Source: a virus. From it: a DNA stretch of 64,000 bases. Every line of letters starts with the position of its first letter. Positions within the stretch are counted from its first letter, which is position 1. Under the pieces are notes generated by a model. It made no database searches, was not told where the DNA came from, and was given only the letters and a program-made list of their open reading frames with translations. The DNA is taken from the IMG/VR virus record IMGVR_UViG_3300010389_000006, positions 21,160-85,159 of that record. One strand, given 5' to 3'. Positions 3 through 62,239 of this stretch are shown here, piece after piece. The position numbers and the translations under genes are program-made.

Positions 3-341
3 GAAAATTATAAGATTCAATACGATCAAATATCAAAAATTAATCTGCAAACAATTGGTATCAAACTGCAAAAAACTCCTCCTGGTGGTGGGTATCATGT
101 TTGGCACTATGAAAACTCTAGTTTCAGAGCAGCAAATAGAGAATTAGCATGGATGGTTTACTTGAATGACATGCCAGAAGGTGAGGCAGAGACTGAGTTT
201 TTGTATCAGAAGAAGAGATACAGACCACAGACTGGCACGTTGTTAATTTGGCCTGCTGGTATGACACATGTACATCGTGGCAACACTGTTTTCACGCATG
301 ATAAATATATTACGACAGGCTGGTTCCTAAAACTCCCCTAA
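3..341 (+). CDS. 2OG-Fe(II) oxygenase, 5'-truncated by window edge
   Basis: Only the C-terminal 112 residues are inside the window; the open frame runs in from base 3 and stops at 339-341. The visible part is the double-stranded beta-helix core of a 2-oxoglutarate/Fe(II)-dependent dioxygenase. It has a proximal HYE (HxE-type) iron triad element in YHVWHYEN, a strand with AWMVYLNDM, the run GTLLIWPAGMTHVHRG with the distal histidine, and YITTGWFL at the end. Prolyl-hydroxylase-like members of this fold are common in T4-like cyanophages. The next gene starts 5 bases downstream, so the two are probably cotranscribed. The substrate cannot be read from sequence. Confidence 0.8.
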   Translation, partial: ENYKIQYDQISKINLQTIGIKLQKTPPGGGYHVWHYENSSFRAANRELAWMVYLNDMPEGEAETEFLYQKKRYRPQTGTLLIWPAGMTHVHRGNTVFTHDKYITTGWFLKLP

Positions 342-346
342 GAATA

Positions 347-1174
347 ATGGCAGACACTCGTGTAGTAATCCAAGTAAATGCACTAGAACGACTTATCATC
401 GTTGATGGTAAAGTTCAGGTGATTGGAGAAGACTATTGGAACGAAAATATTCAGAATGTATTGTTCCCATTCTGGTCATCAGATAGAGATCGTTTGATCT
501 ATCTGAATTATTTCTCTGATGGATCCTATGGTATTGAGAAGAAGAAATATGTTCTTGATCGTGCCAGCGGTGAAAGAAAGTGGAAGACTTATGATTGGAG
601 AGAACCAACGTCTGCACAAGTTGCTGAGGTCGCTGAGTTGCTTAAAGAGAAATACTTTGAGTATCAGGATACTGAACAAGAAGTAATCCAAGAGAAAATT
701 TACAACGAGTATGGTCGTTGGAATAAAGTATCATGGGAAGGAATCAGAATGATTCGTAACTTCATGCTTGATGATTGTGATTGGACACAAATGCCCGACG
801 CACAGTTAGATGATGCGACAAAGGCACAGTGGTCAGCATATAGACAGAAACTAAGGGACATTCCTACTGACTATGCTGGTCAAGATGCTGATGATGTAAG
901 ATTCCCAATTAATCCTATCTTCTTTGCTGGTACATATCAAAGAATGGAAGGAAAGTCTGAGAATGAGTATCTAGCGACACAAGATCAGTTTGGTGTATTC
1001 ACATCATCAACTTATGGTGAGTATGCAAAGAGAATTGTTGCTCAGATTGCAAACTACTATAAGATTAAGAATCCTGATGCTATCTTCCCACCTGCCGATA
1101 TTGTTGCATCTACTGCATCTAGCGAAGAAGAACTAGACCTAATCCTACAGAGAATTCAAGCAAATAACGTTTAA
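347..1174 (+). CDS. Tail assembly chaperone-like protein
   Basis: A 275-aa protein. Residues about 135-176 (RNFMLDDCDWTQMPDA, then QWSAYRQKLRDIP) match the small helical phage tail-assembly-chaperone motif (Phage_tail_APC type: R..LL..sDWTQ....W..YRq.LRdlp). The N-terminal 100 residues look like a separate beta-rich domain and the C-terminal 60 are acidic. Proteins with this motif usually sit next to tail fibre or tape-measure genes and help them fold. Here it lies inside the oxygenase cluster, which supports a link between that cluster and tail assembly. The start ATG is 5 bases after the previous stop. Confidence 0.6.
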   Translation: MADTRVVIQVNALERLIIVDGKVQVIGEDYWNENIQNVLFPFWSSDRDRLIYLNYFSDGSYGIEKKKYVLDRASGERKWKTYDWREPTSAQVAEVAELLKEKYFEYQDTEQEVIQEKIYNEYGRWNKVSWEGIRMIRNFMLDDCDWTQMPDAQLDDATKAQWSAYRQKLRDIPTDYAGQDADDVRFPINPIFFAGTYQRMEGKSENEYLATQDQFGVFTSSTYGEYAKRIVAQIANYYKIKNPDAIFPPADIVASTASSEEELDLILQRIQANNV

Positions 1175-1176
1175 TT

Positions 1177-1512
1177 ATGTCAACTGAACTTAATATTCTT
1201 ATCCTTACCCTTACAACGGGTGAGGAACTGATTGCTAATGTAAAAAAACATATCGAAAGAGTTGATGGACAAGACGTTGAAGTCTGTTACAATCTCGTGT
1301 ATCCATTTGTCATGAAAGAGCAAGGCAGAGAAGGAGACGTAGAGAAAGTATCCTTCATGCCATGGAAAAAATACTCTGGTGATACCCAGTTCTTGCTTGG
1401 GTACAATTATGTTATGAATATGTGCAGTCCTCTTCCAAATGTGCTAAACTCATACAAAGATTCTGTGAACAAGTACATTCAAACTTTGAGCGAGAGAGCA
1501 AATGATTTATGA
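1177..1512 (+). CDS. Sm-like small protein (putative)
   Basis: A 111-aa protein that opens with ILILTLTTGEELIANVK, followed by strands YNLVYPFVMK and KVSFMPWKKYS. This resembles the Sm1 half of LSm-fold proteins (short strands with a conserved TGEE.IA turn) carried by many marine phages. The role is unknown; RNA binding or a structural beta-barrel are both possible. It follows the chaperone-like gene by 2 bases and overlaps the next oxygenase gene by 11 bases, so it belongs to the same operon. The fold assignment is by eye only. Confidence 0.5.
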   Translation: MSTELNILILTLTTGEELIANVKKHIERVDGQDVEVCYNLVYPFVMKEQGREGDVEKVSFMPWKKYSGDTQFLLGYNYVMNMCSPLPNVLNSYKDSVNKYIQTLSERANDL

Positions 1513-2149
1513 ATATGATTTTCTAGATAAAAACAAATTGAGACAAATGCTCAGTTTGTTTGATGCTGGTAAGTTTGAAGATGGTGCTAAGTCTGGTCCA
1601 AAAGACAAAAAGTATAAGCACAACTCAGAGCAGAGTGATATTGAAATCGGCAAAATGGTAAATACTGCCGTTTACAAATTAATCAGAGAATCTGAAATTT
1701 CAAAAATTCATATTCTCAACAAATGTTCTCCATCTTTGATGCTCAAGTATGAGGTTGGCAATCACTATGCTGATCATAGTGATTTTTTTGACATGTGGGG
1801 AACTAGAACAGATTATACCTGTGTTGTTAATCTGAATGATGACTACGAAGGTGGTGAGCATTACATTCAGATTGGAACTGAGAGAATTGAGAAAAAAATA
1901 GAACCAGGCAAAGCACTCATTTATCCAACAGAATTCATTCATGGGGTCAATCCTGTCACCAGTGGTGTTCGTAAGTGCTTGACATTTTGGATGGAAAGTT
2001 CTATTGTAGATCCTACAATTAGATACTATCTTGCTGAATTAAATAAGTTCTACTACAAGATTGAAGGTAGTATGGATCGTGAAGATCTAGTCAATTTTGA
2101 TCTCATTAGAATGGGATTGATCAAGCGCAGCAGTATTTTGAGGAACTGA
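1502..2149 (+). CDS. 2OG-Fe(II) oxygenase
   Basis: A 215-aa dioxygenase of the jelly-roll (DSBH) type. The likely iron ligands are H92 and D94 (in ADHSDFFD) and distal H147 (FIHGVNPVTSG), and R157 would hold 2-oxoglutarate. GGEHYIQIG between them is the usual glycine-rich strand turn. The layout resembles PKHD-type prolyl hydroxylases. It overlaps the upstream gene by 11 bases and is followed after 1 base by another oxygenase. All three metal ligands and the arginine are present, so an active enzyme is expected; the substrate is unknown. Confidence 0.85.
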   Translation: MIYEYDFLDKNKLRQMLSLFDAGKFEDGAKSGPKDKKYKHNSEQSDIEIGKMVNTAVYKLIRESEISKIHILNKCSPSLMLKYEVGNHYADHSDFFDMWGTRTDYTCVVNLNDDYEGGEHYIQIGTERIEKKIEPGKALIYPTEFIHGVNPVTSGVRKCLTFWMESSIVDPTIRYYLAELNKFYYKIEGSMDREDLVNFDLIRMGLIKRSSILRN

Positions 2150-2150
2150 T

Positions 2151-2681
2151 ATGGCATTGCTAACTGATATTAAATCATACGATACTATTCTCACTATCAA
2201 TGAGATGAAAGAGATTGATAGGATTGCTAGTCGCCCCCGCTGGATGTTTGGTGCTGCTAGTGATACCACCACGCCATTTAAAAGATTCTGGAAGATGGAT
2301 GTCAAAGGAATTACTATGTTTGATAGTATTATTCCAGAGAAGATGAAGATCTTGATTCCATTTGAATTTGAGATCTTAGATTATTATTTGAATGGACACA
2401 CATATGGTTTGAATGGTGGAGCACACAAAGATGATGCTGACTACACATTTGTATTGTTCTGTAATCCTACATGGGATATTACATGGGGTGGCAAGACTAT
2501 GTTTGTTCAGGAAGATGGTAGATTTGATTCAGTTTTCCCTAAACCTGGGTCTGCTGTATTGTTCCCATCAGATATTCTACACTGGGCAGAAGAGACTGGA
2601 CGAGAGTTTTATGGTCTTAGAGTAACTGCTGCGTATAAATTAAAGAAAGTGGAGACACAAGATGAACATCCAGACTCTTGA
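2151..2681 (+). CDS. 2OG-Fe(II) oxygenase
   Basis: A 176-aa dioxygenase. Iron ligands H92 and D94 lie in GGAHKDDADYTFVLFC, GGKTMFV is the usual mid-core strand, distal H144 is in SDILHWAEE, and R157 (YGLRVTAAY) is the likely 2-oxoglutarate anchor. It differs strongly from the neighbouring oxygenase, so it is not a recent tandem duplicate. The start is 1 base after the previous stop and the end overlaps the next gene by 20 bases, indicating tight coupling. Confidence 0.85.
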   Translation: MALLTDIKSYDTILTINEMKEIDRIASRPRWMFGAASDTTTPFKRFWKMDVKGITMFDSIIPEKMKILIPFEFEILDYYLNGHTYGLNGGAHKDDADYTFVLFCNPTWDITWGGKTMFVQEDGRFDSVFPKPGSAVLFPSDILHWAEETGREFYGLRVTAAYKLKKVETQDEHPDS

Positions 2682-3054
2682 TTCTGCTGCAAATTGGGAC
2701 GATATTGAAGAGTATGCTGCTACACAATCAGGAGCAGTTGTATACTTTGAGAACCCAAGACTTGAAGCAGCAGATGAAGCAACCAAATCAACAGTATTAG
2801 ATTACTATAAGTTTGATGAAGACATGCCAGCAGAGCTGGTAGTAGAATTGGAAAGTAAGTTCTACGGTTACATTCAGTTTAGAAATCCAGATATTGCATT
2901 TGATTTTGTTGCTGACTATTTCCCTCGCAGAGATGAATTACCAGACGGTGATTCTGGTGAACCATATTGGTATCAATGCTATGTCATTAGACCAGATGGT
3001 GTTGTAGAGTACGATAACAAAGCATTACGACCAGGAAACAATAGACTCAAATGA
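2662..3054 (+). CDS. Hypothetical protein in oxygenase operon
   Basis: A 130-aa acidic soluble protein with no motif I can name. Tyr, Phe and Trp cluster in the second half (FYGYIQFRNPD, EPYWYQCYVIRPDG), suggesting a small folded domain. It overlaps the preceding oxygenase by 20 bases and ends in an ATGA overlap with the next oxygenase, so it is translated with them. A partner or substrate-adaptor role would fit this position, but nothing in the sequence shows it. Confidence 0.75.
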   Translation: MNIQTLDSAANWDDIEEYAATQSGAVVYFENPRLEAADEATKSTVLDYYKFDEDMPAELVVELESKFYGYIQFRNPDIAFDFVADYFPRRDELPDGDSGEPYWYQCYVIRPDGVVEYDNKALRPGNNRLK

Positions 3055-3584
3055 TGGAACAATTTGATGCATTTAACATTTCTTTCTTTCAGACGAAAGT
3101 AGAGAACTGGAGTGAACATAAAGATAGAATACTAGCATTATTAGATCTTGAAGAGTGCGAAGATCATTACACAGACTATCATAAAAACTATCAGAAACTG
3201 ATTGAAAGCAATGAGTTTGCTTCTTATGGTGAGGAAGTTATTGATGTGCTGCGTCCAGCACTAGAACAATTCAATGAAGTATACCCCAACAATATCAACA
3301 TTAAATTGATGTGGGCACAGAAATATGGTGCTGGTCATCTTCATCAATTACACAATCATGGTCCATTAGGATACAGTTCTATATTCTATGCACAGTTTGA
3401 TGGTACACATAAAGCGACATCATTTTATGCACCATATATTGGATTTATTGAAGGTAATGTGTTAGAGTATGTGCCTGAGGTATCTGAGGGAGACATTATA
3501 TTCTTCCCATCTGTACTCATGCACCAGTGTAAACCAGTACAATCTGATACAGAACGTATCATAATTTCTTTTAATATCTACTGA
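3051..3584 (+). CDS. 2OG-Fe(II) oxygenase (HxH type)
   Basis: A 177-aa dioxygenase of the phage 2OG-FeII_Oxy_5-like group. The core reads LHNHGPLGYSSIFYAQFD, then EGDIIFFPSVLMHQCKPV and ERIIISFNIY. The ligands appear to be H101/H103, distal H158 and R169; in this group the usual HxD carboxylate position is occupied by His. Start codons at 3051 and 3054 are adjacent; 3051 gives the ATGA overlap with the upstream gene. The stop codon lies inside the left arm of an inverted repeat at 3579-3632, and the transcription unit probably ends there. Confidence 0.85.
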   Translation: MMEQFDAFNISFFQTKVENWSEHKDRILALLDLEECEDHYTDYHKNYQKLIESNEFASYGEEVIDVLRPALEQFNEVYPNNINIKLMWAQKYGAGHLHQLHNHGPLGYSSIFYAQFDGTHKATSFYAPYIGFIEGNVLEYVPEVSEGDIIFFPSVLMHQCKPVQSDTERIIISFNIY

Positions 3585-3632
3585 CGCTTGACATGGTGTT
3601 GACACCTGTGCTATGGTAGCAAAGCGTCAGTA
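3579..3632 (+). repeat. Inverted repeat around a promoter
   Basis: Perfect 11-bp arms TACTGACGCTT (3579-3589) and AAGCGTCAGTA (3622-3632) enclose a second small hairpin, GGTGT-TG-ACACC. The left arm covers the stop codon of the upstream oxygenase and the first bases of the -35 box. Read-through RNA from upstream would carry both arms and fold; RNA starting at the internal promoter would carry only the right arm. Confidence 0.75.
3588..3617 (+). promoter_or_regulatory. Sigma70-type promoter
   Basis: TTGACA at 3588-3593, an 18-bp spacer and TATGGT at 3612-3617. It is placed to drive the DUF4385 gene at 3640 and marks the switch from the oxygenase cluster to the small-gene island. Confidence 0.65.
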
Positions 3633-7230: not shown

Positions 7231-7255
7231 CCCACCCATGTAGGTGGCAATCCTA

Positions 7256-7948
7256 ATGTTCCAATCCGATCTTTCCCAAATTCGTATCACCCGTCAGTTC
7301 AAGACCAACCGTGATCTTGCTGAGACTATTGCTCACACCGAGCATATGTCAGACAAAGATCTGAAGCGTTTGATCAACTTCAACTCGCTTGATCGTCTTG
7401 CTCAACTGCTCGGCACTGACCGTGAATACATTTTTGAGAAGTGCAAAGCGGACTATGAGTATGCTTTGACAGTTGCTCATGGTACTGCTATTCTTGCCTC
7501 TCGTCAAGGTTCCAAGGACGAATCTTACGTTCTTGATGAGATCAACCGTGTCTCCTCTGGTTATGGCATCTATGTTCAATCTCTGAACAACCAAGATCTC
7601 CGTCCTACGAAGGATGGTCGTCTTCTGAACAAGCGTGAGTTTGCTGAGTCTGGTCTCGACAAACTTGAGTGCTTGAAGTCTATCGACGGTGTTATCAACG
7701 GAGAAGTTGAAGGTTACATCTTTGCCAAGATCTGCTTTGGTGAAGGTGGACACCAAGACAACGTGTTCCATGAAGCAGCACACTTTGCTGATTGGGCAGA
7801 ACAATACGCTGAGGAAGGCAAAGTCTATGTCATTCTCATCGACACCGATCTGACCGACAAGTTCGATCGTCTCAAGTTTAACTACGATTCCGACAACGTT
7901 TGGGTCGTTGATCATGTAGAATTTCAAAAGCGTCTCGGTATTGCATGA
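7256..7948 (+). CDS. Probable restriction endonuclease
   Basis: A 230-aa soluble protein. The core LKSIDGVINGEVEGYIFAK, followed by FGEGGHQDNVFHEAAHF and VYVILIDTDLTD, has the acidic/Lys strand pattern and the GGHQDNV block seen in some PD-(D/E)xK restriction enzymes, but I cannot identify the catalytic triad with certainty. The strongest evidence is context: it ends in an ATGA overlap with an N6-adenine methyltransferase, the usual layout of a type II restriction-modification pair. A GTG at 7244 is in frame, but the ATG at 7256 has better spacing from AGGTGG. It might instead be a methyltransferase-linked accessory protein. Confidence 0.5.
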   Translation: MFQSDLSQIRITRQFKTNRDLAETIAHTEHMSDKDLKRLINFNSLDRLAQLLGTDREYIFEKCKADYEYALTVAHGTAILASRQGSKDESYVLDEINRVSSGYGIYVQSLNNQDLRPTKDGRLLNKREFAESGLDKLECLKSIDGVINGEVEGYIFAKICFGEGGHQDNVFHEAAHFADWAEQYAEEGKVYVILIDTDLTDKFDRLKFNYDSDNVWVVDHVEFQKRLGIA

Positions 7949-8919
7949 GCAAACAACTTCTGGGTCAGTATTATACTACAACTGATCCATTCAACAACTC
8001 TGGTGCATTCCGCTCCTGGTATCAAATGGTCCCCAAGACTACTATCTTGGAACCATTTGCAGGTGCGGGGCACCTTTTTTCTTACATAGATGCAGAGTGG
8101 AATGGATATGATATTGAACCCAATCACCCTGATGTAGAGTATAGAAATACATTTGAACAGTTTCCTACTGGGTACAGTGTGTGTATTACTAATCCACCAT
8201 ACCTTGCTAAGACTGTTGTGTCGCGCAAGAAACTACCAGTGCAACTGATACATGAGGACATGTATCTTGACGCACTCCAGTTGATGTTGGACAACTGCGA
8301 TTACGTCGCGGCAATTATACCCAGCACGTTCTGGAACCAGAGATTATTCAAGAATAGATTGTATGCATGGGATAAGTTTGATATGCAACTATTCAGTGAT
8401 ACTGATGCACCCGCAGGTGTTGCGTATTTTGTACCGCATAATGTAGAACACACGCGGACATTTGTCAATGGTGAGGAAATTGTGCTCACATCTGACAACA
8501 CACCAACAAAAACTGATTTTCCTGTGCGCTTCAACCCACATGACCTGGCACCCATCCTCGTCAATGGAATTGACACTAATACACAAAATAACATTCATCT
8601 CCGCATGTTACAGGACAATGACATACCATCACTCGTGAATAGTGCTGGTAAGTGTAAACCAACCAATAGAAATCACTTCCCGATTGAGTCAACAATTGTA
8701 AAAGAGGAAGATCTGCCTGCAATCAATGCTATGATAGACCAGTGGCGACATGAGACAAAGGATTTTTTCCTTACTAGTTTCAAGTCTCCCATGGTATCAG
8801 GCAAATACAGGAAACGGATCAGTTTCCTGGAAGTCAGGTGGTTGCTAGATCGCTTCTACTCTGATAAACTGCCTGAGAGGCGTCTAGAAGCGCCTGTAAG
8901 CGTCCTTAACTACCTTTGA
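7945..8919 (+). CDS. N6-adenine DNA methyltransferase
   Basis: A 324-aa SAM-dependent methyltransferase. GQYYTTTDPF near the N-terminus is the motif X-like segment, LEPFAGAGHLF (35-45) is the SAM-binding motif I, NGYDIEPN the acidic loop after strand 2, and TNPPYLAKT (NPPY 83-86) the catalytic motif IV of amino-methyltransferases. Residues 90-320 form a target-recognition region that I cannot assign to a DNA site. It overlaps the upstream probable endonuclease by 4 bases. Likely roles are self-protection of phage DNA from the coupled nuclease or from host enzymes. Confidence 0.85.
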   Translation: MSKQLLGQYYTTTDPFNNSGAFRSWYQMVPKTTILEPFAGAGHLFSYIDAEWNGYDIEPNHPDVEYRNTFEQFPTGYSVCITNPPYLAKTVVSRKKLPVQLIHEDMYLDALQLMLDNCDYVAAIIPSTFWNQRLFKNRLYAWDKFDMQLFSDTDAPAGVAYFVPHNVEHTRTFVNGEEIVLTSDNTPTKTDFPVRFNPHDLAPILVNGIDTNTQNNIHLRMLQDNDIPSLVNSAGKCKPTNRNHFPIESTIVKEEDLPAINAMIDQWRHETKDFFLTSFKSPMVSGKYRKRISFLEVRWLLDRFYSDKLPERRLEAPVSVLNYL

Positions 8920-50708: not shown

Positions 50709-53700
50709 ATGAGTTTTCATATTAATTCCGATAAAGAAAAGATTAGAGGCGTAAACCCTAAACTCATCGGTGATAATGAAGCTACTATTAGAGTTGGTAC
50801 TGGAACTGACGAGCGAGAAGTATTTCGTGCTCAGTTAGATCCAAATACCAATTTGCCCAGAATTGGTATTAACAGAACTGGTCAAAGAGTAAATAACATT
50901 GAGATTACTCAAGGTGGTACTGGATATACTCAAGTTCCTCTTGTAGAACTTTCTGCTCCACCAGCTGGCGGAACTCAAGCACTTGCATCTGCTTTTATTT
51001 TCAATGGAAGAATTTCTTCTATTGCTGTAAATGATCCTGGCAGTGGATACACTTCACCCCCATTAGTAACTATCACTGGCGGTAATGGTGCTGGTGCTGC
51101 TGCCGAAGCGTTCCTTGATACAGTTGACTTTGAACTTGATATCAATGGTGCTATTAGAACTTCTACATCTATCATTTCTGATACTGCTAGAGTTCTAAAC
51201 CTTGATATTGAAAACTTTGTTACTCCAGACTTAGCACTCAGAGGTCCAAGTCTAAAAACATACATGAATGGAACTGGAACCATTTGGAGTTCCAATGTAA
51301 TCCTTCAAAAAGGAGATTACAGATATTTTGGTCAAAACGTTTATGAGGCACTTAACTCTGGTCAAACTGGAGTTCTTGGACCTGAACATAGTGATGGCAT
51401 TGAACTGAATGGAGAAGTAAGATTTAAGCATATTGGTTTTAGAGTTGTAGATCCAAATAATGAACTGTATCTACAAACTGGAGAAGCAGGATTATTCCCA
51501 CGTTCAATTACACCTCAACTTGGTGATAGATCAGATAGAATTGCTACAACAGAATACGTCCTCAACCTAGCAACGAATGACGTTGGTGGTCGTATCTATG
51601 TTTCCGAACAGATTGGTTCCGATCTAAACGATGGTCGTTCAGCTGTAAACCCAGTTAGAACCATCAAGAAAGCGGCGCAACTTGCTTGGGAAACGGTTGG
51701 CGTAAAAGAAACTATTATTGTTTCTGGTGGTGATTATGTAGAAGATAACCCAATTTCACTCCCACCAGATGCTTCGGTTGTTGGTGATAACTTGCGTCTT
51801 GTTATCATTAGACCAGGAAATCCAAACAAGCACATCTTTAAGTTTGGTGATAAAAACTATGTAACTGGTGTTACGTATAGAGACCAAGTTGATTCAAACG
51901 GAGACCCAGTAGCAACTTGGGACTTTGCTATGGTCTTTGACGACAAGCAAAGAATTTCTATTGACTATGATGCTAATGGCGATTTTGGAACATCATTCCC
52001 AATTGGTCATCAAATTTTTGGTCCAAACAGATTTAGAGTTACTTTCCAGAATAACACAGGTCTTTCAGATCTACAGACTGGCGTTGAAGTTGTTGGTGTC
52101 AACACTGGTGCTAGAGCAAATGTTCTAGATGTCATATTCAACTCAACAACTGGAGCAAATGCGTATGTTTCTGGAACACTTGATGTTGAACTATCATCTG
52201 GTTCTTTCGTTGAGGGTGAGCAATACGACTACCTTATATCATCAACAACTGGACCAGCAATTGCTCTAACTATTTCTCAGACTGCTGGGGAAAACACTCT
52301 TAGATTTACTGATGATCCAGAATCAACCATTCCAGCTGGAACATATGTTTTCCTAGATGATACAACTGATGCTAATTTTACTCAAGGTTATTATCAGGTA
52401 GGATCTATTGATGACGCCAATGCTCCAACATACTGGGATGTAAACTTTGTTCCTGTTTTAGGATCTCCTGGATGGGATAGTTCCACTTCAGCATCAATTA
52501 CTATCAATGAAGCATCTCCTGATATTGAAACGTTTGATACAACCAGACTAAGATCAATTAGAGCTGAAGGTGAGGTTGTTTCTGTTGATGAGGATATTAC
52601 AACAACTTTACCAATTGTAAGACTTGACTTCTCACTACAAGGAGATCCCAGTATTGCTACTGGTGGTTTCCAAGAAGCACAGTTTGGTAGTGCTGAAGAT
52701 CTTGGTGGTGTTGTTTTCTACACCAGTGATCTTGTAGGAAGAACCAATACCCACGAGTTCAAAGAGGGTCAGGAAATCATCATCACTGGAATGCCAGTGG
52801 CAAACCCAGACCTTTCTGCGTTGAATGGTAAGCAAAGAATTTATAAAGTTCTTGAGGATGCTGACGGTAGAGCAAGAAGATTTGTTATTCCTAAGAAGTT
52901 TCCATCAATTGCTAATCCAGATCTAGATCCTGGTGAATTTGCCACGGTTCAGTCTTACTCAAAAGTAATTACACTTTCACTACTAAACTCACCAAACAAG
53001 TTCCAACTTACAACTCCAACTGATAGAAGATATCAGGATGCTTGTCAACTCATCAGAAACAACAGAGATTTTATTGCTGATGAAGTTGTAGGACGTATCA
53101 ACGATGAGTTCAAGAAAGAATATTACTCAGCATATAACATTGATACGGTAAACAACACTTTTGATATTTTCCTAGGAACAAGCAACTTTGCTCATACTTA
53201 TGTAAGTGGCGGAACTGTATACTTTGGAGCAACTCCATACACGATCACGGATTTTGTTTGGGACAATCTTAGCACTGGTGTTGCTACTATTACTCTAAGC
53301 ACTGCTCCTGGTTTTGTTGAAGATGATATTATTAGAATAGAAGATATTCTAGTTTCATGTGCTAATGGCGAAAAGTTATATCCAAGTTTTAGCATCCCCG
53401 TAGATGATGATCAGTGCCGTCAAGACATTGTTCACTTCTTGAATGCTCTAGTAAGAGACCTTGAGTTTGGAAGCAACCACAACGTCTTAGAAGCAGGTTC
53501 TAAGTATATCACTGGAGCTAAGATTGGATATGTAGAGAATGAGATTGTTCAAACCGTCCGTGCTATTGAGTATGCCAGAGAGTTGGCAATCTATGCGATG
53601 TGTAATTGGAGAATTGGAAACAGAACTCCTGGTGATCCTCTATATGCTCCACAGTATTCTACACTTGACAGATATTTTGATGATACTGTTATTACAGCAA

Positions 53701-56700
53701 CTGCTGGAACACCAGCTTGTTCTAACGTAGCATCTGCTATTACAACACTATCATATTTGTTTATTGATGTTGTTGCCAACAACACAAGTGGAACTTATCT
53801 AGACGCAGCATACCTAATCGCAAGAAACAAAGATCTCATTGCTCATCAGGCACTCCTAGATACCCAATCACAGTATCCTACACTAGGTCTTTCAAATACA
53901 CACGAAAGAAAGTGCCTCAGAGACATTGGATATGTTCTAAGAGGTCTCATCAGGGATCTGTGCCTTGGTGGAAACGCTGGAACAGTTACAGCAGCAAAAG
54001 CGTACTTTACTGCTAATGTTCTATCTGGTGTTGATGTAGATCAGATTGAAGAAACAAGATACGCTTATACCAAGGTAAGAGATTACGCTATTGACGCAAT
54101 GCGTAATTGGACTGATGGTGCTGGAACACCAGTAACAACATCATCAGATATTCCACAATTCACAGATGGAACTATTCTGGCAGATCCAGGAAGTCCAGAT
54201 TGCGCCAATGTAGCATCATCAATTGGCACTCTGATGGGAATTCTTGATGCAATTCTTGAGTATGGTGAAGATAGCGAAAGTCCAACTGCTACTGCTCCAA
54301 CATCTGTAATTGAGAATTATGGAACTCTATATGATATTTCAGAAATTATTACTTACCCAGATAGCTATCTTACTGATTTTAATAATCAAGTAGTAGCAAT
54401 TCGTGGCGACTATGATGACTATCCAATTATTGAAGCCTCACCTTATACACAGAATGCATCTGTCATTTCATTCTTAGGGGGTGGCGGCGCTAGAGTTGAT
54501 GGTTCTAAGGTCAAACAACCCAACTGTCCTTTCCCTGGTCTAGAATTAGATGGAACAGCATCATTCCCCAACCAAGGTAAGTCCATGGTTGCTGCTGCTT
54601 TCACCATTGTATCTTTTGGTGGAACGGGATATGAAATTATCAATGATGGTTATACTCAGTTAGTTTCTGTCTTCGTTATCTTCTGTGCTGACGGTGTTCT
54701 TGCCGAATCTGGTGGATATGCTTCTATCACAAACTCAGCAACAAACTTTGGACAATATGCTTTAAGAGCAACTGGATATAGAGACGAAGCATATGAATTT
54801 GACGTTGCTACTGTAGATGTTGTATCTCAGACAGCAACTGGAAGAACTACACTTACTATTTCTGGTATAGGAAGAGAACCACTTGAGCACTATGTCTGTA
54901 AGTTTGATGGTTTCTCCAATTTTGATGACGAAACAGAATACTTTATTGATTCTGTAAGTCAGGTTTCTGTTGGACCTCCTTTCTCCGCTACTATCACCAT
55001 TGATGATGGAACTGGAACTCCACTAGAACTTATCAGAGATTCTGATGGTGCTGTAATTACTGGTCTAACAAACTTACAGAATGCTCTAACACCACAAGGT
55101 CAGAACGCTACAATTAGACTACACAGACCATCTATTGTTAATAGTTCTTCTCACACTTGGGAATATGCTGGTTCTGGTACTAACTACCTTGCTCTTCCAG
55201 AGAACGGTGGTACTAAGATAGAAGCATTTGAGCAAGTATCTGAGAACTATGGTAGAGTCTATTGTTCTGGTACGGACGAACTTGGTGACTTCAAAGTTGG
55301 TACTTTTGCTAGAATTGAAAACAGAACTGGTAATATTACCTTTACTGGTACAGTTACGATCTCGGAAGTTGAATTCCTCAAACTGAAGGGTGGAGACGTT
55401 GTTGTTACTGGTTTTGACGCATCCAATACTCTTGGTGGTGCTAACGCAACCGACTCCAAACTACCAACTCAAAAAGCAGTTAGAGATTACATCACCAACA
55501 ACCTTGGTCCATACATCAACAAACCATATTCAACCAACGCTGTTCCTAGAGCACTAGTCGAACTTACTGATTCTGGTAAGATTTCTCTAGATCAGATTCC
55601 CGCTCTAAGACCATTCAGTGTCTACACTGTTGCTGATGAAGCAGAAAGACTTTCGATTGAAGGGGCACTTGCTGGTGATATTGCTATTCAGCAAGACACA
55701 TCAACATCGTTTATTCTAAACAACGATCTCGATAGTCTATTCCTTGGTTTTGCTGTAGACCCAACGCTACAATTTACCAATCAAAATATTTACACTGGAA
55801 CACCTTCTACGGGAAGAATTCAAGCAACTGAATACAGAGAAGGTGTTGTATATCAAATCAATATCACTGATGGTGGATCTGGTTATACAGTAGCACCAAC
55901 GGTTACAATTTCTGGTGGTAGTCCAGACCCCAATGGATCAGTTCCTGCTACAGCATCATGTACCATTGCAAATGGTGAAGTTGTTACAGTAACTATTACT
56001 GAGAATGCTGGATATAGGGGTGGTTATGGATACACAGCACAACCTATTGTAACCTTTACTGCTCCTCCTGGTGCTGGAACACAAGCAACTGGTAATGCTT
56101 TTATAGAAAGCAGACTATATGGTGATGTTGTCAACAGAATCAAAATGCTTGACACAGATAATTTTGATGACGATCTCGGAAATACAATTAATATTACTCG
56201 TGTTGTAAATACTTCTGCTTCCGATATCAACAACTGGGTATCTCTATCTAGTGATTCTGTTTCTGTTGGAACTCTTGTTGGTCCTGGTGTTATTTCCACA
56301 ACCTTACTTGGTACTGGAGCAGCAAACTCATTCACATTCCTTAGAGGCGACGAAAGTTATGCTCTAGCAGTTCAATCTCTCAAGGGTGCTGAATCTAGAT
56401 ACTTTGCTCAACTATATTCAACTGCTACTGTAGGATCTGCTCAACTTATCTTTACAACAAACTCCAATACTCTAATTGGACACGAAGTTAAACCAACGGT
56501 TGCTGGTATTGCTAACGACACCTCAATCAATGGTGTTGTAACTACTGGAGGTTTGACAACTGTATCAATCAATAATCCACTAACAGCAGAAATACCTGCG
56601 GGAACTGTTATTGAATTTGAAAGAGGATCTTCTCCACTACTATTTGAATCTTCATATACTCAGGGTGGATTTATTGATCAATTAGTTATTGGAAATGGTG

Positions 56701-59696
56701 GTACTAATTATACCGATGGTCAGTATTTTGATGTTGGAATTGATGGTGGTGCTGGAACTGGACTAAGAGCAAATATTGTTGTTTCTGGTGGAACAGTTAC
56801 TGAAATTACTGTTACAAACTCTGGAACTGGATACACAAATGACTTTACCGTCAATCCAAATCCAGCAGATATTGGTGCTGGATCTAACCTAGTTTTACTA
56901 GCAAAAACTAGCACAGTAAACAGACAGTATGCGAACGTATCTCTTGACATTCAGAGAGTTTCCGATCTTACTATTTCTGCCGATGAATATGGAACTATTG
57001 GTGTTGCTAGATTCCTCAAGTCTCAGTTCAAAATTGGAGAATCTGGAAACGGATCTATTGACATTAGAACAGGTCCTGATAGTGGACTAGATGCTGACTT
57101 ACTTGACGGCGCACAAGGCGCTTTCTATACAAACGCATCCAACATTAGTTCTGGAACTTTAGATTCTGATCGTCTATCTGGAACATATAACATCTCAATT
57201 TCTGGTCAATCGGCAAACACGATTCGTCTATTGACTGGTACATCAAACCCATCTTCAAACCCACTACCCAAGGATTTTGCTCAAGGTATTGTTCTAAACA
57301 GTGTCTTCAATAGTTCAAATGGACTATCAACTGCATATCCATCTGTAACAGGTATTGATCCTAACGATCCAAACTCAACTCCCACATCGACAAAACATCT
57401 TGTAATGTCGATCAGAACTGAGGGTAGCGGTATTTCAACTGCTGCTGGTGTTAGACAACTAGCATTTGCTGATGATGATAGCATCTACACTCGTGGTTCT
57501 GGAAGTGAAGCAGGACAATCAACTACATTTGGATCATGGAATAAGATTTGGAGTTCTGGAAACCATGGTCTAGATAGTGGACTTGATGCTGATAAACTTG
57601 ATAACAAGCAAGGTCTTTGGTATCAAGATGGTTGGAACATCAAAACAAATGAGTTGTTTGATACCAGAATGCCACGCTGGTTAAGCCCAACTAAGTTCAG
57701 AAATCAACTAGAAATTAAATCGTATTCTGGAACAGATACTTATTATAGAATTCTTGTAAGAGAGAATCTTCCTATTGATCCAGGTGGAGATTATGAACCA
57801 AACTCCCAAATTAATGTTTATGATGCTAACTTCCAAGACATTAGTGATTTCTTCATTACCGATGCCTTCCGAAATGTAGATATTGATGATCCAACAAATA
57901 CTTACACAATGCTTATCGGAAGACTTCCTTCTGGTGGTGATATTACTCTTGCTAAGTATATTGGTTTCGCTGGCGAAGAAAAAGTATTTGAAAACTATGA
58001 AATCTATGATACAAATACTTACACCGTATCAAAACTAGGAAATGATAGTGGAGATGCATTTTTACAGTTAGGAAGAAGAGATGGTGTAGCATCTTCACAA
58101 CCATACATTTGGTTTAATTCTTCATTATTCCCAGCACTAGATGGAAATGGAGATCCATCATATAATGCTGCCATTGTTGCTAGTGGAGGAGATGCCACTA
58201 CAGGATCAGGAACACTAGAATTCCTAGTAGCAAATGAAAATGCGGTAGAGATCAATGGTTCTGTTATCTGGAACGCATCAAACGTAGCGTTTAACAATAC
58301 AAACGTTGTTACAACATATCTAGAAGATGGAACTACTCCAAACCTAAGATCAGCAGTAATGCGCGATGGTTTTGGAAACTTCTCTGCTGGAACAATTACT
58401 GCTTCTCTAACTGGTGCCGCTTCACTCAACGTGTTGAAGACTGGAGACACCATGACTGGTGCTCTGCTAATTACGAATGTCGGTGCTACAACAACTGCTC
58501 TTAGTGTTTCTGGTAAAGGTGTATTCCTTGCTGGTGCTACCGTTGCCGCTGACTTTGCCGTTGATACTGGAACACTCTATGTGAATTCCACAAACAACAG
58601 AGTAAGCATCAACACTCCAGTTGATGGTGGAACAGGCGCATTTATTGAAACCAATCCACTGAAGTTGAATGTTTATGATGCTAACCAATCACTAGCATTC
58701 CAGAGTGATACGGCGCTTACAGCAAATACAAGTTTCTATCAATTCTCTATCTTCAATAAGGTTGATGGTGGCGAATCTGGATTGATTCTACAACATGGCG
58801 ATGGAGAAGTAGCACAGTGGGGTATTTCTACTGTAAGAACTGGAAATTATGTTGGCGATCTTATCTTTAGAACGAGAGTTGCTAATTCACAAAATTCCAA
58901 GAGACTTACTCTTACAAATGGTGGCAATCTAATTCCAGCGACAACAAATGCTCAATCTGTTGGTAGCAGCACGAATAAGTGGCAAGAGATTTATACACAC
59001 ATTTCTCTAGTTCAAGATAGTGTAAGAATTGGAGATGCTTCCGCTAATGCCGAGGCAGATGTTCAATTCAAGGGTGCTAGTGCTTCTCCTGGTGGCGGTA
59101 GAAACTTCCGTATTGGTAATAACATCGGTGCTGGTGTTGATGTATTTGCTATCTATTCTTCTGGAACTGATGGTGGTATTGACTGGAAGAATACTCTCGG
59201 AACTCCAGAAGCTCCAGCATTAGCAATTCAAGGTGCTAATAATAGAATTGGTATTAATACCACAGAATTTAGTGGAATTGATAATTCGGATGAAGAAAAT
59301 CCAATTACAAGAAACTATATTCTAAACGTTCAGGGAGATATGAACCTGAATGGTATTCTTTATCAAAACAATGAGGAATTTGTAACTTCAAGATGGACAG
59401 AATCTAGCGATTTTGATGGAGCAAATATTTACAGATTGTCTTATGTTGGTATCAACAAAGAAGATCCACAATATGCTCTGGATGTTTCTGGTGATCTTAA
59501 TATGACTGGCGTTCTAAGAGTTAATGGAACTGCTCAGTGGTTAGATTCTTATGGCATTATTAAAGTTACTAATTCACTCATCGCAGAAGACGTAACAATT
59601 CCATCTGGAACAATTGCATATAGTAATGGTCCAATTGACATTGCGGATACATTTGCGATAACCGTAGAAGATGGTGCCGTCTGGTCTATTGTTTGA
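50709..59696 (+). CDS. Giant tail fibre protein (2995 aa)
   Basis: A 2995-aa protein. Residues 65-130 hold GSGY units (GGTGYTQVPLVEL, PGSGYTSPPLVTI). Residues about 318-370 (NPVRTIKKAAQLAWETVGVK, then TIIVSGGDYVEDNPISLPPD) look like the start of a right-handed beta-helix. Two helical modules lie at about 776-977 and 1030-1194. From about 1570 the sequence is typical long-tail-fibre shaft: LPTQKAVRDYI, then DADLLDGAQGAFY near 2126 and DADKLDNKQGLWY near 2292. The C-terminus (YVGINKEDPQYALDVSGDLN near 2912) is the GIN..P...LDV.G repeat of fibre tips. It probably forms a trimeric receptor-reaching fibre, tipped by the next gene product. Confidence 0.8.
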   Translation: MSFHINSDKEKIRGVNPKLIGDNEATIRVGTGTDEREVFRAQLDPNTNLPRIGINRTGQRVNNIEITQGGTGYTQVPLVELSAPPAGGTQALASAFIFNGRISSIAVNDPGSGYTSPPLVTITGGNGAGAAAEAFLDTVDFELDINGAIRTSTSIISDTARVLNLDIENFVTPDLALRGPSLKTYMNGTGTIWSSNVILQKGDYRYFGQNVYEALNSGQTGVLGPEHSDGIELNGEVRFKHIGFRVVDPNNELYLQTGEAGLFPRSITPQLGDRSDRIATTEYVLNLATNDVGGRIYVSEQIGSDLNDGRSAVNPVRTIKKAAQLAWETVGVKETIIVSGGDYVEDNPISLPPDASVVGDNLRLVIIRPGNPNKHIFKFGDKNYVTGVTYRDQVDSNGDPVATWDFAMVFDDKQRISIDYDANGDFGTSFPIGHQIFGPNRFRVTFQNNTGLSDLQTGVEVVGVNTGARANVLDVIFNSTTGANAYVSGTLDVELSSGSFVEGEQYDYLISSTTGPAIALTISQTAGENTLRFTDDPESTIPAGTYVFLDDTTDANFTQGYYQVGSIDDANAPTYWDVNFVPVLGSPGWDSSTSASITINEASPDIETFDTTRLRSIRAEGEVVSVDEDITTTLPIVRLDFSLQGDPSIATGGFQEAQFGSAEDLGGVVFYTSDLVGRTNTHEFKEGQEIIITGMPVANPDLSALNGKQRIYKVLEDADGRARRFVIPKKFPSIANPDLDPGEFATVQSYSKVITLSLLNSPNKFQLTTPTDRRYQDACQLIRNNRDFIADEVVGRINDEFKKEYYSAYNIDTVNNTFDIFLGTSNFAHTYVSGGTVYFGATPYTITDFVWDNLSTGVATITLSTAPGFVEDDIIRIEDILVSCANGEKLYPSFSIPVDDDQCRQDIVHFLNALVRDLEFGSNHNVLEAGSKYITGAKIGYVENEIVQTVRAIEYARELAIYAMCNWRIGNRTPGDPLYAPQYSTLDRYFDDTVITATAGTPACSNVASAITTLSYLFIDVVANNTSGTYLDAAYLIARNKDLIAHQALLDTQSQYPTLGLSNTHERKCLRDIGYVLRGLIRDLCLGGNAGTVTAAKAYFTANVLSGVDVDQIEETRYAYTKVRDYAIDAMRNWTDGAGTPVTTSSDIPQFTDGTILADPGSPDCANVASSIGTLMGILDAILEYGEDSESPTATAPTSVIENYGTLYDISEIITYPDSYLTDFNNQVVAIRGDYDDYPIIEASPYTQNASVISFLGGGGARVDGSKVKQPNCPFPGLELDGTASFPNQGKSMVAAAFTIVSFGGTGYEIINDGYTQLVSVFVIFCADGVLAESGGYASITNSATNFGQYALRATGYRDEAYEFDVATVDVVSQTATGRTTLTISGIGREPLEHYVCKFDGFSNFDDETEYFIDSVSQVSVGPPFSATITIDDGTGTPLELIRDSDGAVITGLTNLQNALTPQGQNATIRLHRPSIVNSSSHTWEYAGSGTNYLALPENGGTKIEAFEQVSENYGRVYCSGTDELGDFKVGTFARIENRTGNITFTGTVTISEVEFLKLKGGDVVVTGFDASNTLGGANATDSKLPTQKAVRDYITNNLGPYINKPYSTNAVPRALVELTDSGKISLDQIPALRPFSVYTVADEAERLSIEGALAGDIAIQQDTSTSFILNNDLDSLFLGFAVDPTLQFTNQNIYTGTPSTGRIQATEYREGVVYQINITDGGSGYTVAPTVTISGGSPDPNGSVPATASCTIANGEVVTVTITENAGYRGGYGYTAQPIVTFTAPPGAGTQATGNAFIESRLYGDVVNRIKMLDTDNFDDDLGNTINITRVVNTSASDINNWVSLSSDSVSVGTLVGPGVISTTLLGTGAANSFTFLRGDESYALAVQSLKGAESRYFAQLYSTATVGSAQLIFTTNSNTLIGHEVKPTVAGIANDTSINGVVTTGGLTTVSINNPLTAEIPAGTVIEFERGSSPLLFESSYTQGGFIDQLVIGNGGTNYTDGQYFDVGIDGGAGTGLRANIVVSGGTVTEITVTNSGTGYTNDFTVNPNPADIGAGSNLVLLAKTSTVNRQYANVSLDIQRVSDLTISADEYGTIGVARFLKSQFKIGESGNGSIDIRTGPDSGLDADLLDGAQGAFYTNASNISSGTLDSDRLSGTYNISISGQSANTIRLLTGTSNPSSNPLPKDFAQGIVLNSVFNSSNGLSTAYPSVTGIDPNDPNSTPTSTKHLVMSIRTEGSGISTAAGVRQLAFADDDSIYTRGSGSEAGQSTTFGSWNKIWSSGNHGLDSGLDADKLDNKQGLWYQDGWNIKTNELFDTRMPRWLSPTKFRNQLEIKSYSGTDTYYRILVRENLPIDPGGDYEPNSQINVYDANFQDISDFFITDAFRNVDIDDPTNTYTMLIGRLPSGGDITLAKYIGFAGEEKVFENYEIYDTNTYTVSKLGNDSGDAFLQLGRRDGVASSQPYIWFNSSLFPALDGNGDPSYNAAIVASGGDATTGSGTLEFLVANENAVEINGSVIWNASNVAFNNTNVVTTYLEDGTTPNLRSAVMRDGFGNFSAGTITASLTGAASLNVLKTGDTMTGALLITNVGATTTALSVSGKGVFLAGATVAADFAVDTGTLYVNSTNNRVSINTPVDGGTGAFIETNPLKLNVYDANQSLAFQSDTALTANTSFYQFSIFNKVDGGESGLILQHGDGEVAQWGISTVRTGNYVGDLIFRTRVANSQNSKRLTLTNGGNLIPATTNAQSVGSSTNKWQEIYTHISLVQDSVRIGDASANAEADVQFKGASASPGGGRNFRIGNNIGAGVDVFAIYSSGTDGGIDWKNTLGTPEAPALAIQGANNRIGINTTEFSGIDNSDEENPITRNYILNVQGDMNLNGILYQNNEEFVTSRWTESSDFDGANIYRLSYVGINKEDPQYALDVSGDLNMTGVLRVNGTAQWLDSYGIIKVTNSLIAEDVTIPSGTIAYSNGPIDIADTFAITVEDGAVWSIV

Positions 59697-59697
59697 T

Positions 59698-59705
59698 TAT
59701 AAATA
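59698..59705 (+). promoter_or_regulatory. Consensus late promoter
   Basis: A perfect TATAAATA beginning 2 bases after the fibre stop codon and 34 bases before the ATG at 59740. Confidence 0.75.
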
Positions 59706-59739: not shown

Positions 59740-60897
59740 ATGTCAATTATTAGAGTAAATTCCATTGAAAATAATAATGGAGTTCCAGTTTTGAACTTTG
59801 ACCTAAATGGCAACTTAGTTGTTCAAAATGGTTTAGGATTGCCAGTTGTCAATGATTCAACTCGACCAGCGGCACCCGCTGTTGGAACAGTTGTTTATAA
59901 TACTGATGATAGAGTTACTCAGGTATATACTGGTGCTGAAGTTGGATGGGTTGATTTAGGAACTCCTGCTGTTCCATTTGAAGCAACATTTACTTCACTA
60001 TTATCTTCTTGGAGTAGAACTGGTCCAACTTCTATTGGATCTGCATATGCAGGAACACCATTAGACGGTCAAGTAACTTTAAGTGCTGGTCAACAGTTGT
60101 GGACTGTTCCCTATAGCGGAATTTACCGAATAAAGGCATATGGTGCTCAGGGAGGATGTTCATCCAATTGTAGAGGTGGTGGTGGAGCTGTAATCCAAGG
60201 TGATTTTTCACTTGCAGAAGGTGAGATAATTAAAATTCTAGTTGGATCCAGTGGTCCTCTGAGTCCAAATGATTGTGATACTGGTGGTGGCGGCGGAACT
60301 TATGTAGTCAAATCTCCATACAATACACAAGCATCTATTCTGTGTATTGCTGCTGGCGGTGGAGGTGGAAGTAACTCAGGTCATAACAGTCAAGGATGTG
60401 GAGACAGAACAAACCTAACTGGAAACGGAGCTGGTGGTAAAGATGGTCAGATTGGAAATGCTGGTGTAAATGGTGCTGGTGGAAATGCTGGAACTGGTGG
60501 ATATGCTGGTGATAGATCAAACAGCAGCTCCAACAGAGGAAATCCTGGTGGTGGTTTCTTCTCTGGTGGTAATAGTGGATCAAGTAATCCAACATGGGGC
60601 GAAACTACTGCTGGATACTCATATCTAGATGGTGGTAATGGTGGAACATCTAACGATACCACCAATTCCTACGGTGGATTTGGTGGTGGCGGCGGCGGTC
60701 ACGGCAACTGCTTCATCTCTGGCGGTGGCGGCGGTGGATATAATGGCGGAGGATGCCAAGTTCAGTATACTGATCGCCACGGCGGATGTGGTGGCGGATC
60801 GTTTAACTCTGGTTCGAACCAAGTTGGAACTGCTGGTGGAAATTTTGTAGAATCTGGTCCACCAGCAATGGGCAAAGTTGAAGTAGCTCTGGTATAA
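59740..60897 (+). CDS. Glycine-rich adhesin-like tail tip protein
   Basis: A 385-aa protein. Residues 1-80 are a fibre-attachment-like segment (MSIIRVNSIENNNGVPVLNF, then RPAAPAVGTVVYNTDDR). Residues about 115-385 are glycine-rich: the strand YRIKAYGAQGG, then GGGGAVIQGDFSLAEGEIIK, ILVGSSG and GGGGGTYVV, followed by dense Gly runs. The first part matches the ALK/LTK-type glycine-rich domain; the runs would form packed polyglycine II helices, as in the gp38 adhesins of T-even phages such as S16. At least nine cysteines are scattered in the Gly region. Position behind the giant fibre supports a role as its receptor-binding tip. Confidence 0.65.
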   Translation: MSIIRVNSIENNNGVPVLNFDLNGNLVVQNGLGLPVVNDSTRPAAPAVGTVVYNTDDRVTQVYTGAEVGWVDLGTPAVPFEATFTSLLSSWSRTGPTSIGSAYAGTPLDGQVTLSAGQQLWTVPYSGIYRIKAYGAQGGCSSNCRGGGGAVIQGDFSLAEGEIIKILVGSSGPLSPNDCDTGGGGGTYVVKSPYNTQASILCIAAGGGGGSNSGHNSQGCGDRTNLTGNGAGGKDGQIGNAGVNGAGGNAGTGGYAGDRSNSSSNRGNPGGGFFSGGNSGSSNPTWGETTAGYSYLDGGNGGTSNDTTNSYGGFGGGGGGHGNCFISGGGGGGYNGGGCQVQYTDRHGGCGGGSFNSGSNQVGTAGGNFVESGPPAMGKVEVALV

Positions 60898-60923: not shown

Positions 60924-61577
60924 GTGAAATTTGAAGCAACGTTTGATTCTTTGTTATACCAAAACAATAATATTGAATGGGTTTCTCCATTCATTCTAAA
61001 AAACAAATTACCTTTTGATGTTTTTGACGAACTAAGTCGAGCATCAAAGGGTAATCTTTATGTTGATAAATTAGTAGGATTATTCCCAGATCAGTATCAA
61101 ATAGACCTGAAAGAGTGTCCTTTATTTGAAAAACATGCTTTGAGTGTTTCTGATTTTTTTGCTGAGAAATGTGGAAAGACTCCAATATTTACAGAAATAA
61201 GACAAAATGTTCCATATGGTTCTAGTGTTTATGTGAAAGACCTATGGGTAAATGAAATGTATTCTGGGTCATATAATAAATTACACAGACACGATGGTCT
61301 AATGAGTTTTATTATTTTTATTGATGTTCCATATACACACGAGGATCAGGTAAAAGAAGAACAATATATTGATGATCCACAAAAGGTAATGAATGGATGT
61401 ACTGAGTTCTTAGATCCATACACCCAATCTCTTTACAAACTAAGAGTAGAAAGAGGAATAGAAGGTAATATGTTCTTATTTCCTTCTTGGATTTATCATG
61501 TAGTATACCCATTCAAAAATGTAGATAAACCCAGGGTGAGTATGGCAGGAAACATTTCATTTGATTATAGAAAATGA
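60924..61577 (+). CDS. 2OG-Fe(II) oxygenase (HxH type), GTG start
   Basis: A 217-aa dioxygenase. YNKLHRHDGLMSFIIFIDVP (H121, H123), GNMFLFPSWIYHVVYPF (distal H192) and KPRVSMAGNISF (R204) give the DSBH core of the phage 2OG-FeII_Oxy_5-like group. There is no ATG near the N-terminus; the GTG at 60924 gives the full domain. It lies 26 bases after the adhesin-like gene and ends in an ATGA overlap with the next oxygenase gene. Confidence 0.8.
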   Translation: MKFEATFDSLLYQNNNIEWVSPFILKNKLPFDVFDELSRASKGNLYVDKLVGLFPDQYQIDLKECPLFEKHALSVSDFFAEKCGKTPIFTEIRQNVPYGSSVYVKDLWVNEMYSGSYNKLHRHDGLMSFIIFIDVPYTHEDQVKEEQYIDDPQKVMNGCTEFLDPYTQSLYKLRVERGIEGNMFLFPSWIYHVVYPFKNVDKPRVSMAGNISFDYRK

Positions 61578-62239
61578 CAAATATATTAAATTGGAATTCT
61601 AATATTCCACAGACATCATTTGCTCCCAATTGGTCGATACCATTTTATCATAATATCGTTCTCAATAATTCAGAAATATCTGATATTAAAAAGGTCATTC
61701 TGGAAAGAGAACAAAGTATTATTAATTATTTTTCAGAAACCACAAATGATGGTGGAACTGGATTGGGTCCAAATAGTTTAACATCAAAGTTTAGAAAATT
61801 TAATATTCTTACTTGGAATTATTCGTGGGTTGATAAAATAAAATCTTCTATCATTTCTGGAATTTTATCTTTAGAGAATTCAGATTCTCCGCCATCTCCA
61901 ATATATGCTCAGTGCTGGGCTAATGTTATGAGAAAAGGTCAAAAAATTCATCCACATTGGCATAGTTCGTTTGAATATAGTTATCTTGGGGCTCATATAA
62001 CAATAGCAGCAGAAGACACAAAAACATATTATGAAAATCCTTTTAATAAATTTAACGTTCAAGCATTTGATAATATCCCAGGATCGTTGACAATATTTCC
62101 AAGTTACCTTGTTCATTGGACTGACGTTCACGATGGCAATGATGAAAGAATTACATTAGCAATGGACTTCATAACAAAAGAGTATTATGATATAACCAAT
62201 GAAGAAGATATAAAAAATAATTTTTGCTTGTTAGTATAA
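61574..62239 (+). CDS. 2OG-Fe(II) oxygenase (HxH type)
   Basis: A 221-aa dioxygenase. MRKGQKIHPHWHSSFEYSYL (H126, H128, H130), GSLTIFPSYLVHWTDVH (distal H181) and ERITLAMDF (R192) match the same general core as the preceding enzyme but with low identity. The N-terminal 100 residues form a helical cap. Coupled to both neighbours by ATGA and TAATG overlaps. Confidence 0.8.
   Translation: MTNILNWNSNIPQTSFAPNWSIPFYHNIVLNNSEISDIKKVILEREQSIINYFSETTNDGGTGLGPNSLTSKFRKFNILTWNYSWVDKIKSSIISGILSLENSDSPPSPIYAQCWANVMRKGQKIHPHWHSSFEYSYLGAHITIAAEDTKTYYENPFNKFNVQAFDNIPGSLTIFPSYLVHWTDVHDGNDERITLAMDFITKEYYDITNEEDIKNNFCLLV

Follow-up and report, generated by a model that had tools for sequence, protein, structure and literature searches.

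The stretch of DNA analysed here (the window) comprises 64,000 nucleotides, bases 21160-85159 of the 85,159-base virus record IMGVR_UViG_3300010389_000006. It is a fragment of a T4-like cyanophage, a marine cyanobacterial virus, and among named phages it comes closest to Synechococcus phage S-RSM4 (NC_013085, Kyanoviridae), with a DNA identity of 97.5% from the fibre operon through window position 3625 and of 90% in the baseplate region. Seven genes coding for proteins of the 2-oxoglutarate (2OG)-Fe(II) oxygenase fold, designated OX1 to OX7, lie in it in two clusters (Table 1). The first cluster belongs to a real, conserved and fibre-linked cassette behind a late-promoter motif. As far as sequence can tell, its recurring gene order suggests a chemical modification of the fibres that grip the host, and hydroxylation of these fibres is plausible.

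A first-pass annotation of the window, made from the letters alone, had counted four oxygenases in one tight operon with a tail-assembly-chaperone-like gene, and three more at 60.9-62.9 kb. Coordinates and Pfam matches bear out this count. Six of the proteins match Pfam families over the cut-off, PF13640 for OX1, OX2 and OX3 and PF13759 for OX4, OX5 and OX6; OX7 exceeds the cut-off for PF20043, its PF13759 match lying below it. No further PF13640 or PF13759 match was found in the whole record. The chaperone gene and the compactness of the operon were likewise confirmed, neighbouring genes overlapping by up to 20 bases or being separated by at most 5, in the order OX1, chaperone, H111, OX2, OX3, H130, OX4. 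OX1 is cut by the window edge; the full gene (L007:2881-3501) codes for 206 amino acids (aa), and its ATG overlaps the stop codon of the upstream fibre gene. Upstream of OX1, outside the window, lie the genes of a 4482-aa giant protein, of two collar-domain short-fibre proteins and of a 1405-aa fibre protein with glycine (Gly)-rich tracts. The last of these, the final gene of the short-fibre set, is immediately upstream of OX1, and the chaperone gene follows OX1 directly. The earlier statement that the oxygenases bracket the tail genes needs correction: cluster 1 directly follows the short-fibre genes, which lie outside the window, and the interval between the two clusters also includes a non-tail plastic region at about 4-19 kb. 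The gene of the 4482-aa giant (L006:732-14180), which contains internal DNA repeats, heads the fibre operon; its homologue in other genera is often adjoined by an oxygenase of a separate clade.

Table 1. Oxygenase genes and associated features in the window (window coordinates)
Feature	Position	Strand	Description
OX1	3-341	+	C-terminal 112 aa of a 206-aa HxE...H...K oxygenase; phrog_61 1.4e-46; PF13640 3.6e-9
Tail (fibre) assembly chaperone	347-1174	+	phrog_4697 3.6e-74; PF16778 2.5e-13
H111	1177-1512	+	DUF6561/phrog_431; no assigned function, conserved in the cassette
OX2	1502-2149	+	PKHD-like (PiuC/YbiX-like) 2OG oxygenase, HxD...H...R; PDB 3dkq E=2.6e-27
OX3	2151-2681	+	PF13640 oxygenase, HxD...H...R
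H130	2662-3054	+	Conserved 130-aa protein without assigned function
OX4	3051-3584	+	PF13759 oxygenase-fold protein, HxH...H...R
Long-tail-fibre-like protein	50709-59696	+	2995 aa; DNA similarity to S-RSM4 largely ends at about 57.3 kb
TATAAATA	59698-59705	+	T4-type late-promoter motif, 42 bases upstream of the Gly-rich gene at 59740
Gly-rich protein	59740-60897	+	385 aa, candidate adhesin; Gly content up to 45% over 60 aa
OX5	60924-61577	+	PF13759, HxH...H...R
OX6	61574-62239	+	PF13759, HxH...H...R
OX7	62224-62886	+	PF20043/phrog_1644, candidate HxD

Conservation of the cassette was followed across 80 OX1-containing viral contigs. In these the order fibre genes-OX1-chaperone-H111-OX2-OX3-H130 is near-invariant, even where identity has fallen to about 52% (OX1) and 30-49% (fibres), whereas gene order outside the cassette varies. 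Some contigs carry two small extra open reading frames (ORFs) ahead of OX2, the two most distant ones (L176 and L177) have neither OX2 nor OX3, and 45 OX4-like ORFs were found in the OX1-holding loci. The sample of complete genomes consisted of 17 cyanophages, each belonging to another genus according to its record, with a total of 166 oxygenase genes (PF13640/PF13759; 5-21 each). The conservation across cyanophages that had been proposed as a check was found, fibre-OX1-chaperone-OX2 recurring in eight of them (S-RSM4, ACG-2014j, S-H9-1, Syn1, S-CAM3, S-RIM32, S-CAM1 and S-PM2). Where a strong phrog_4591 short fibre is encoded, OX1 and OX2 are present in 8 of 9 genomes; the 8 genomes without it have neither (p=0.0004, the genomes not being independent). 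In a tree of 172 sequences OX1, OX2 and OX3 each cluster with members of tail cassettes only, and the genomic context changes 49 times, compared to a mean of 74 (minimum 66) for shuffled labels. Judged from their dN/dS ratios (0.05-0.27), OX1-OX4 are under purifying selection.

Linkage was evaluated in nine whole genomes by placing the 68 oxygenase clusters at random slots in 4000 randomisations. A fibre or chaperone homologue lies within three genes of 18 clusters, against 7.0 expected, and no randomisation reached this number; this and the following figures are only a guide, because the fibre subset was chosen post hoc, the labels derive from S-RSM4 homology and the genomes are those of related phages. 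For all tail genes the excess is smaller (29 versus 19.5 expected, p=0.011), and auxiliary metabolic genes (AMGs) are fewer than expected (14 versus 21.4). DNA genes occur at the expected frequency (20 versus 20.7), and a linkage of the oxygenases to DNA repair was rejected on these grounds. A circular-shift variant of the test on the first five genomes gave a weaker result (fibre within three genes 21 versus 5.5, p=0.0012; tail gene adjacent 12 versus 8.1, p=0.21). Gly-rich genes were found within three genes of 12 of the 68 clusters (3.5 expected, p=0.0003), which is a lead only, because threshold and distance were examined after the fact and direct adjacency is at expectation (1 versus 1.2).

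Both oxygenase clusters sit behind the T4-type late-promoter motif TATAAATA, from which late transcription is predicted; the sites reported here are motif matches, not transcription data. The record has three sites, each on the coding strand. The first, at record position 688, precedes by 44 bases the gene of the 4482-aa protein, with which the fibre-OX1-OX4 operon starts; the second is 40 bases ahead of a baseplate gene at 34728, and the third is ahead of the second cluster (Table 1). Since the number of sites in the window is not above chance, the argument rests on their position and strand. Among ten genomes 90 sites are on the main coding strand and 4 on the opposite one, a bias to which strand base composition may contribute. 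Operons headed by the motif in these genomes contain 40 of 90 oxygenase genes, 112 of 220 head or tail genes, 23 of 140 DNA genes and 210 of 1397 others, the oxygenases being found there about as often as head and tail genes and more commonly than DNA genes.

Membership of the 2OG-Fe(II) oxygenase superfamily relies on sequence matches for OX1-OX6 and on PF20043 together with sub-threshold matches for OX7, and the double-stranded beta-helix fold was modelled for OX1 and OX4. The metal ligands had been described as intact in cluster 1. This is correct for OX1, OX2 and OX3, in which the 2-His-1-carboxylate motif HxD/E...H and a distal R or K are present: H129, E131, H183 and K195 in OX1 and H92, D94, H147 and R157 in OX2, each set invariant in 24 homologues, and H92, D94, H144 and R157 in OX3, found in 17 sequences except the most distant one. 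The latter (L174:10450-10959) has no metal-ligand histidines in an otherwise intact cassette and is probably an inactive enzyme. The classical motif is absent from OX4, OX5 and OX6, which have H-x-H...H in place of HxD, and OX7 has a candidate HxD. In an alignment of 30 PF13759 sequences H101, H103 and H158 are invariant and R169 is nearly so, and the motif is common to PDB entries 2rg4 and 3bvc; PF13759 may thus form a three-histidine subfamily of the fold.

The AlphaFold model of OX1 (mean pLDDT 79, pTM 0.82) was compared with solved structures using Foldseek. The closest are the protein prolyl hydroxylases PHD2, vCPH of virus PBCV-1 and the prolyl 4-hydroxylase (P4H) of Pseudomonas putida, with the caveat that PHD2 is over-represented in the PDB and that the P4H/PHD fold class includes other chemistries too. 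A profile match to vCPH was also obtained (E=0.0022). According to the model OX1 folds like the protein prolyl hydroxylases, and prolyl hydroxylation itself is a prediction. The model of OX4 (pLDDT 87) is closest to 3bvc and 2rg4, followed by prolyl hydroxylases and related enzymes. OX2 aligns over its full length, C-terminal part included, to PKHD hydroxylases, but remains under every NCBIfam equivalog cut-off (best 101.9 bits, cut-off 143) and is therefore called PKHD-like rather than assigned to PiuC/YbiX. AlkB-family Pfam matches were absent at E<=0.1 for OX2-OX7 and at E<=0.5 for OX1; OX2 has a sub-threshold Tet_JBP match only. Searches of the PDB with single sequences yielded chance hits only, and no relatives of OX1 were found in bacterial and archaeal genomes. 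The match of OX3 to the NCBIfam family 'FlmC' is weak and far below the cut-off, and a literature search on FlmC returned no oxygenase paper.

OX5-OX7 come after the long-fibre-like giant and the 385-aa Gly-rich protein, and g13 is next downstream. Between 57.3 and 63.2 kb almost no DNA similarity to S-RSM4 is found, the flanks being 71-90% identical, and this divergent stretch spans the distal long fibre and OX5-OX7 together. S-RSM4 also has an oxygenase array next to g13 (near SRSM4_133-142), but with eight oxygenases instead of three and without DNA similarity to OX5-OX7, and its distal long fibre differs too. The eight genes of that array (L207, about 89.3-95.0 kb) are diverged, with two other ORFs interspersed; a Gly-rich protein lies on either side of them, and the whole is bounded by a 2921-aa fibre gene and g13. 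No close relatives of OX5, OX6 and OX7 were found in viral-contig scans. The 385-aa protein shows a weak similarity, below the cut-off, to the ALK/LTK Gly-rich domain and has three partial matches only among phage records; it is a candidate adhesin, and its position resembles that of T-even gp38.

We consider that OX1-OX4 most likely hydroxylate newly made fibre proteins or the chaperone-fibre complex, and OX5-OX7 the long fibre or the Gly-rich protein ahead of them, a reading to which we give about an even chance. OX1-OX4 would be late-expressed, cytoplasmic 2OG/Fe(II) hydroxylases, made from one operon with the short tail fibres and the chaperone for their assembly. Their substrate would be the new fibre proteins, with the Gly-rich 1405-aa fibre as the first candidate, or alternatively the chaperone-fibre complex, and the reaction would precede or accompany trimerisation and attachment. 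OX5-OX7 would act on the long fibre or on the Gly-rich protein heading their unit. The analysis establishes the gene order and its conservation, the position of the late-promoter motif, the fold class, purifying selection and the above-chance fibre linkage, whereas catalysis, the protein nature of the substrate, the type of residue and the benefit, which might lie in stability or in receptor contact, are inferred. A broader proposal, which we regard as doubtful, is a dedicated virion-protein hydroxylation system in T4-like cyanophages, in which conserved OX1, OX2 and OX3 would be matched to a conserved Gly-rich short fibre and a fast-changing array of 3-8 enzymes, several of them of the three-histidine type, would be swapped along with the distal long fibre or adhesin, tuning host attachment.

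Several observations weigh against fibre hydroxylation. S-WAM2 has fibre, chaperone and H130 homologues in cassette order with zero oxygenases there; the oxygenases are therefore accessory and modification is not essential for fibre assembly. Sister subfamilies are tied to uvsX-g41, uvsY-uvsW and g23-g3, and relatives of OX7 in P-HM1, P-HM2 and MED4-213 adjoin gp55, so that tail linkage is not family-wide and the second cluster draws on a pool wider than tails. The OX5-like genes of S-RIM12 lie at about 131 kb and may be remote from fibre genes. Shared synteny of related phages partly reflects common descent, and the fibre category of the linkage test was narrowed after the broader tail result had been seen. 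A classical collagen substrate was rejected, the Gly-rich tracts holding only short G-x-y runs. Finally, the bacterial relatives of OX2 (PiuC/YbiX) show linkage to siderophore receptors, and an action on the compounds that these receptors import is suspected (PMC12004947). The coupling to tail genes proposed at first pass is thus retained for OX1-OX3, with their tail-only clades, near-invariant order, above-chance fibre linkage and late motifs, and does not extend to the sister subfamilies or the relatives of OX7. The counter-evidence named at first pass, homologues regularly linked to nucleotide or DNA modification genes in place of tail genes, was in part found, in these subfamilies and relatives.

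The main alternative is that host proteins or, as for PiuC, small molecules are the targets. During infection host proteins might be hydroxylated, in the way that EF-Tu is by P. putida P4H, or 2OG might be drawn down with an effect on nitrogen and energy metabolism. We judge this unlikely, even if such a role has already been proposed in print for cyanophage 2OG oxygenases (PMC3037559, PMC9602691), agrees with their high copy number per genome, and finds some support in the P4H-EF-Tu complex being among the nearest folds of OX1; it leaves the locking of OX1-OX3 around a fibre chaperone in late operons unexplained, and the neighbourhood of the oxygenases is depleted in AMGs. Modification of small molecules or of surface components tied to adsorption, such as a siderophore or a glycan, appears quite improbable. 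The full-length PKHD/PiuC likeness of OX2 speaks for it, as does the pairing of PiuC relatives with catecholate-siderophore receptors, which also counts against fibre hydroxylation, but the nearest folds of OX1 are protein hydroxylases and the linked genes are structural rather than devoted to transport or glycans.

Much the same low probability applies to hitch-hiking, i.e. accessory genes parked in a plastic region by the fibres with no functional link. It would account for the missing close relatives of OX5-OX7, for the different array sizes in related phages and for the lost histidines of the L174 copy of OX3, but not for a cassette whose order is near-invariant amid varying surroundings, with low dN/dS and with OX1 nested between two co-operating genes. 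The usual published suggestion, repair or modification of nucleic acids by AlkB/Tet-like enzymes, seems to us very unlikely for these genes. Other subfamilies in the same phages do adjoin uvsX, uvsY and uvsW, and the argument in print, that oxygenase genes are always adjacent to uvs genes, is cited in PMC9146016. This argument applies to those other subfamilies and not to the fibre cassette, for which the late-operon position, the absence of AlkB-family matches among the seven proteins and the lack of an excess of DNA genes point elsewhere.

The closest known counterpart is S-RSM4 itself, whose loci SRSM4_204-210 contain the cassette as here (97.5% DNA identity). The vCPH of PBCV-1 (viral collagen prolyl 4-hydroxylase, PDB 5c5t) is, like OX1, virus-encoded and of the P4H fold class, but belongs to an algal virus and acts on collagen-like substrates, whereas OX1 is an HxE protein in a phage fibre operon. 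4-Hydroxyproline in viral proteins has been reported (Eriksson 1999, as cited in PMC9301287). OX2 resembles the PKHD-type hydroxylases PiuC, YbiX and Sbal_3634 up to the C-terminal part but, besides its lower score, is linked to fibre genes and not to a TonB receptor. The marine roseobacter proteins 2rg4 and 3bvc have PF13759 and the H-x-H motif in common with OX4-OX6, while the phage copies show linkage to fibre genes or to further late genes. The uvsX- and uvsY-linked 2OG oxygenases of syn9 and S-RIM2 share superfamily and Pfam family with the cassette but form separate clades locked to recombination genes. The abundance of 2OG oxygenase genes in cyanophages has been published (PMC3037559), with 24 in S-SCSM1 (PMC9602691), and the roles proposed were DNA repair, 2OG/nitrogen metabolism and host reprogramming. 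A 2022 paper mentioned abundant virus P4HA genes, together with collagen in viral tail fibres, and called the use of these genes cryptic (PMC9301287). No literature on hydroxylated phage fibres, or on fibre-linked oxygenases as a system, was found in a search of largely open-access papers. The genes as such are not new, being already annotated in S-RSM4.

The role of cyanophage PF13640/PF13759 oxygenases is usually given as 'DNA repair' or '2OG metabolism', and the position-locked cassette makes part of the question directly testable on particular fibre proteins. If the fibres were hydroxylated, phage attachment organelles would carry a post-translational modification, and the many diverged enzyme copies would be easier to explain.

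Some existing labels of these genes look like transferred misannotations. RefSeq and PHROGs call OX3 'DNA endonuclease V' and the phrog_1644 label for OX7 is 'minor coat protein', both proteins having the oxygenase fold, and a gene beside the S-RSM4 oxygenase array (L204) is labelled 'ferrochelatase'. The plastic region between the two clusters (window about 4-19 kb) codes for a helicase, a restriction enzyme and a methyltransferase; a restriction endonuclease-like gene (phrog_18366) and, behind it, a gene for a DNA methyltransferase (phrog_18657) occupy window positions 7244-8919 and are also present in S-RSM4.

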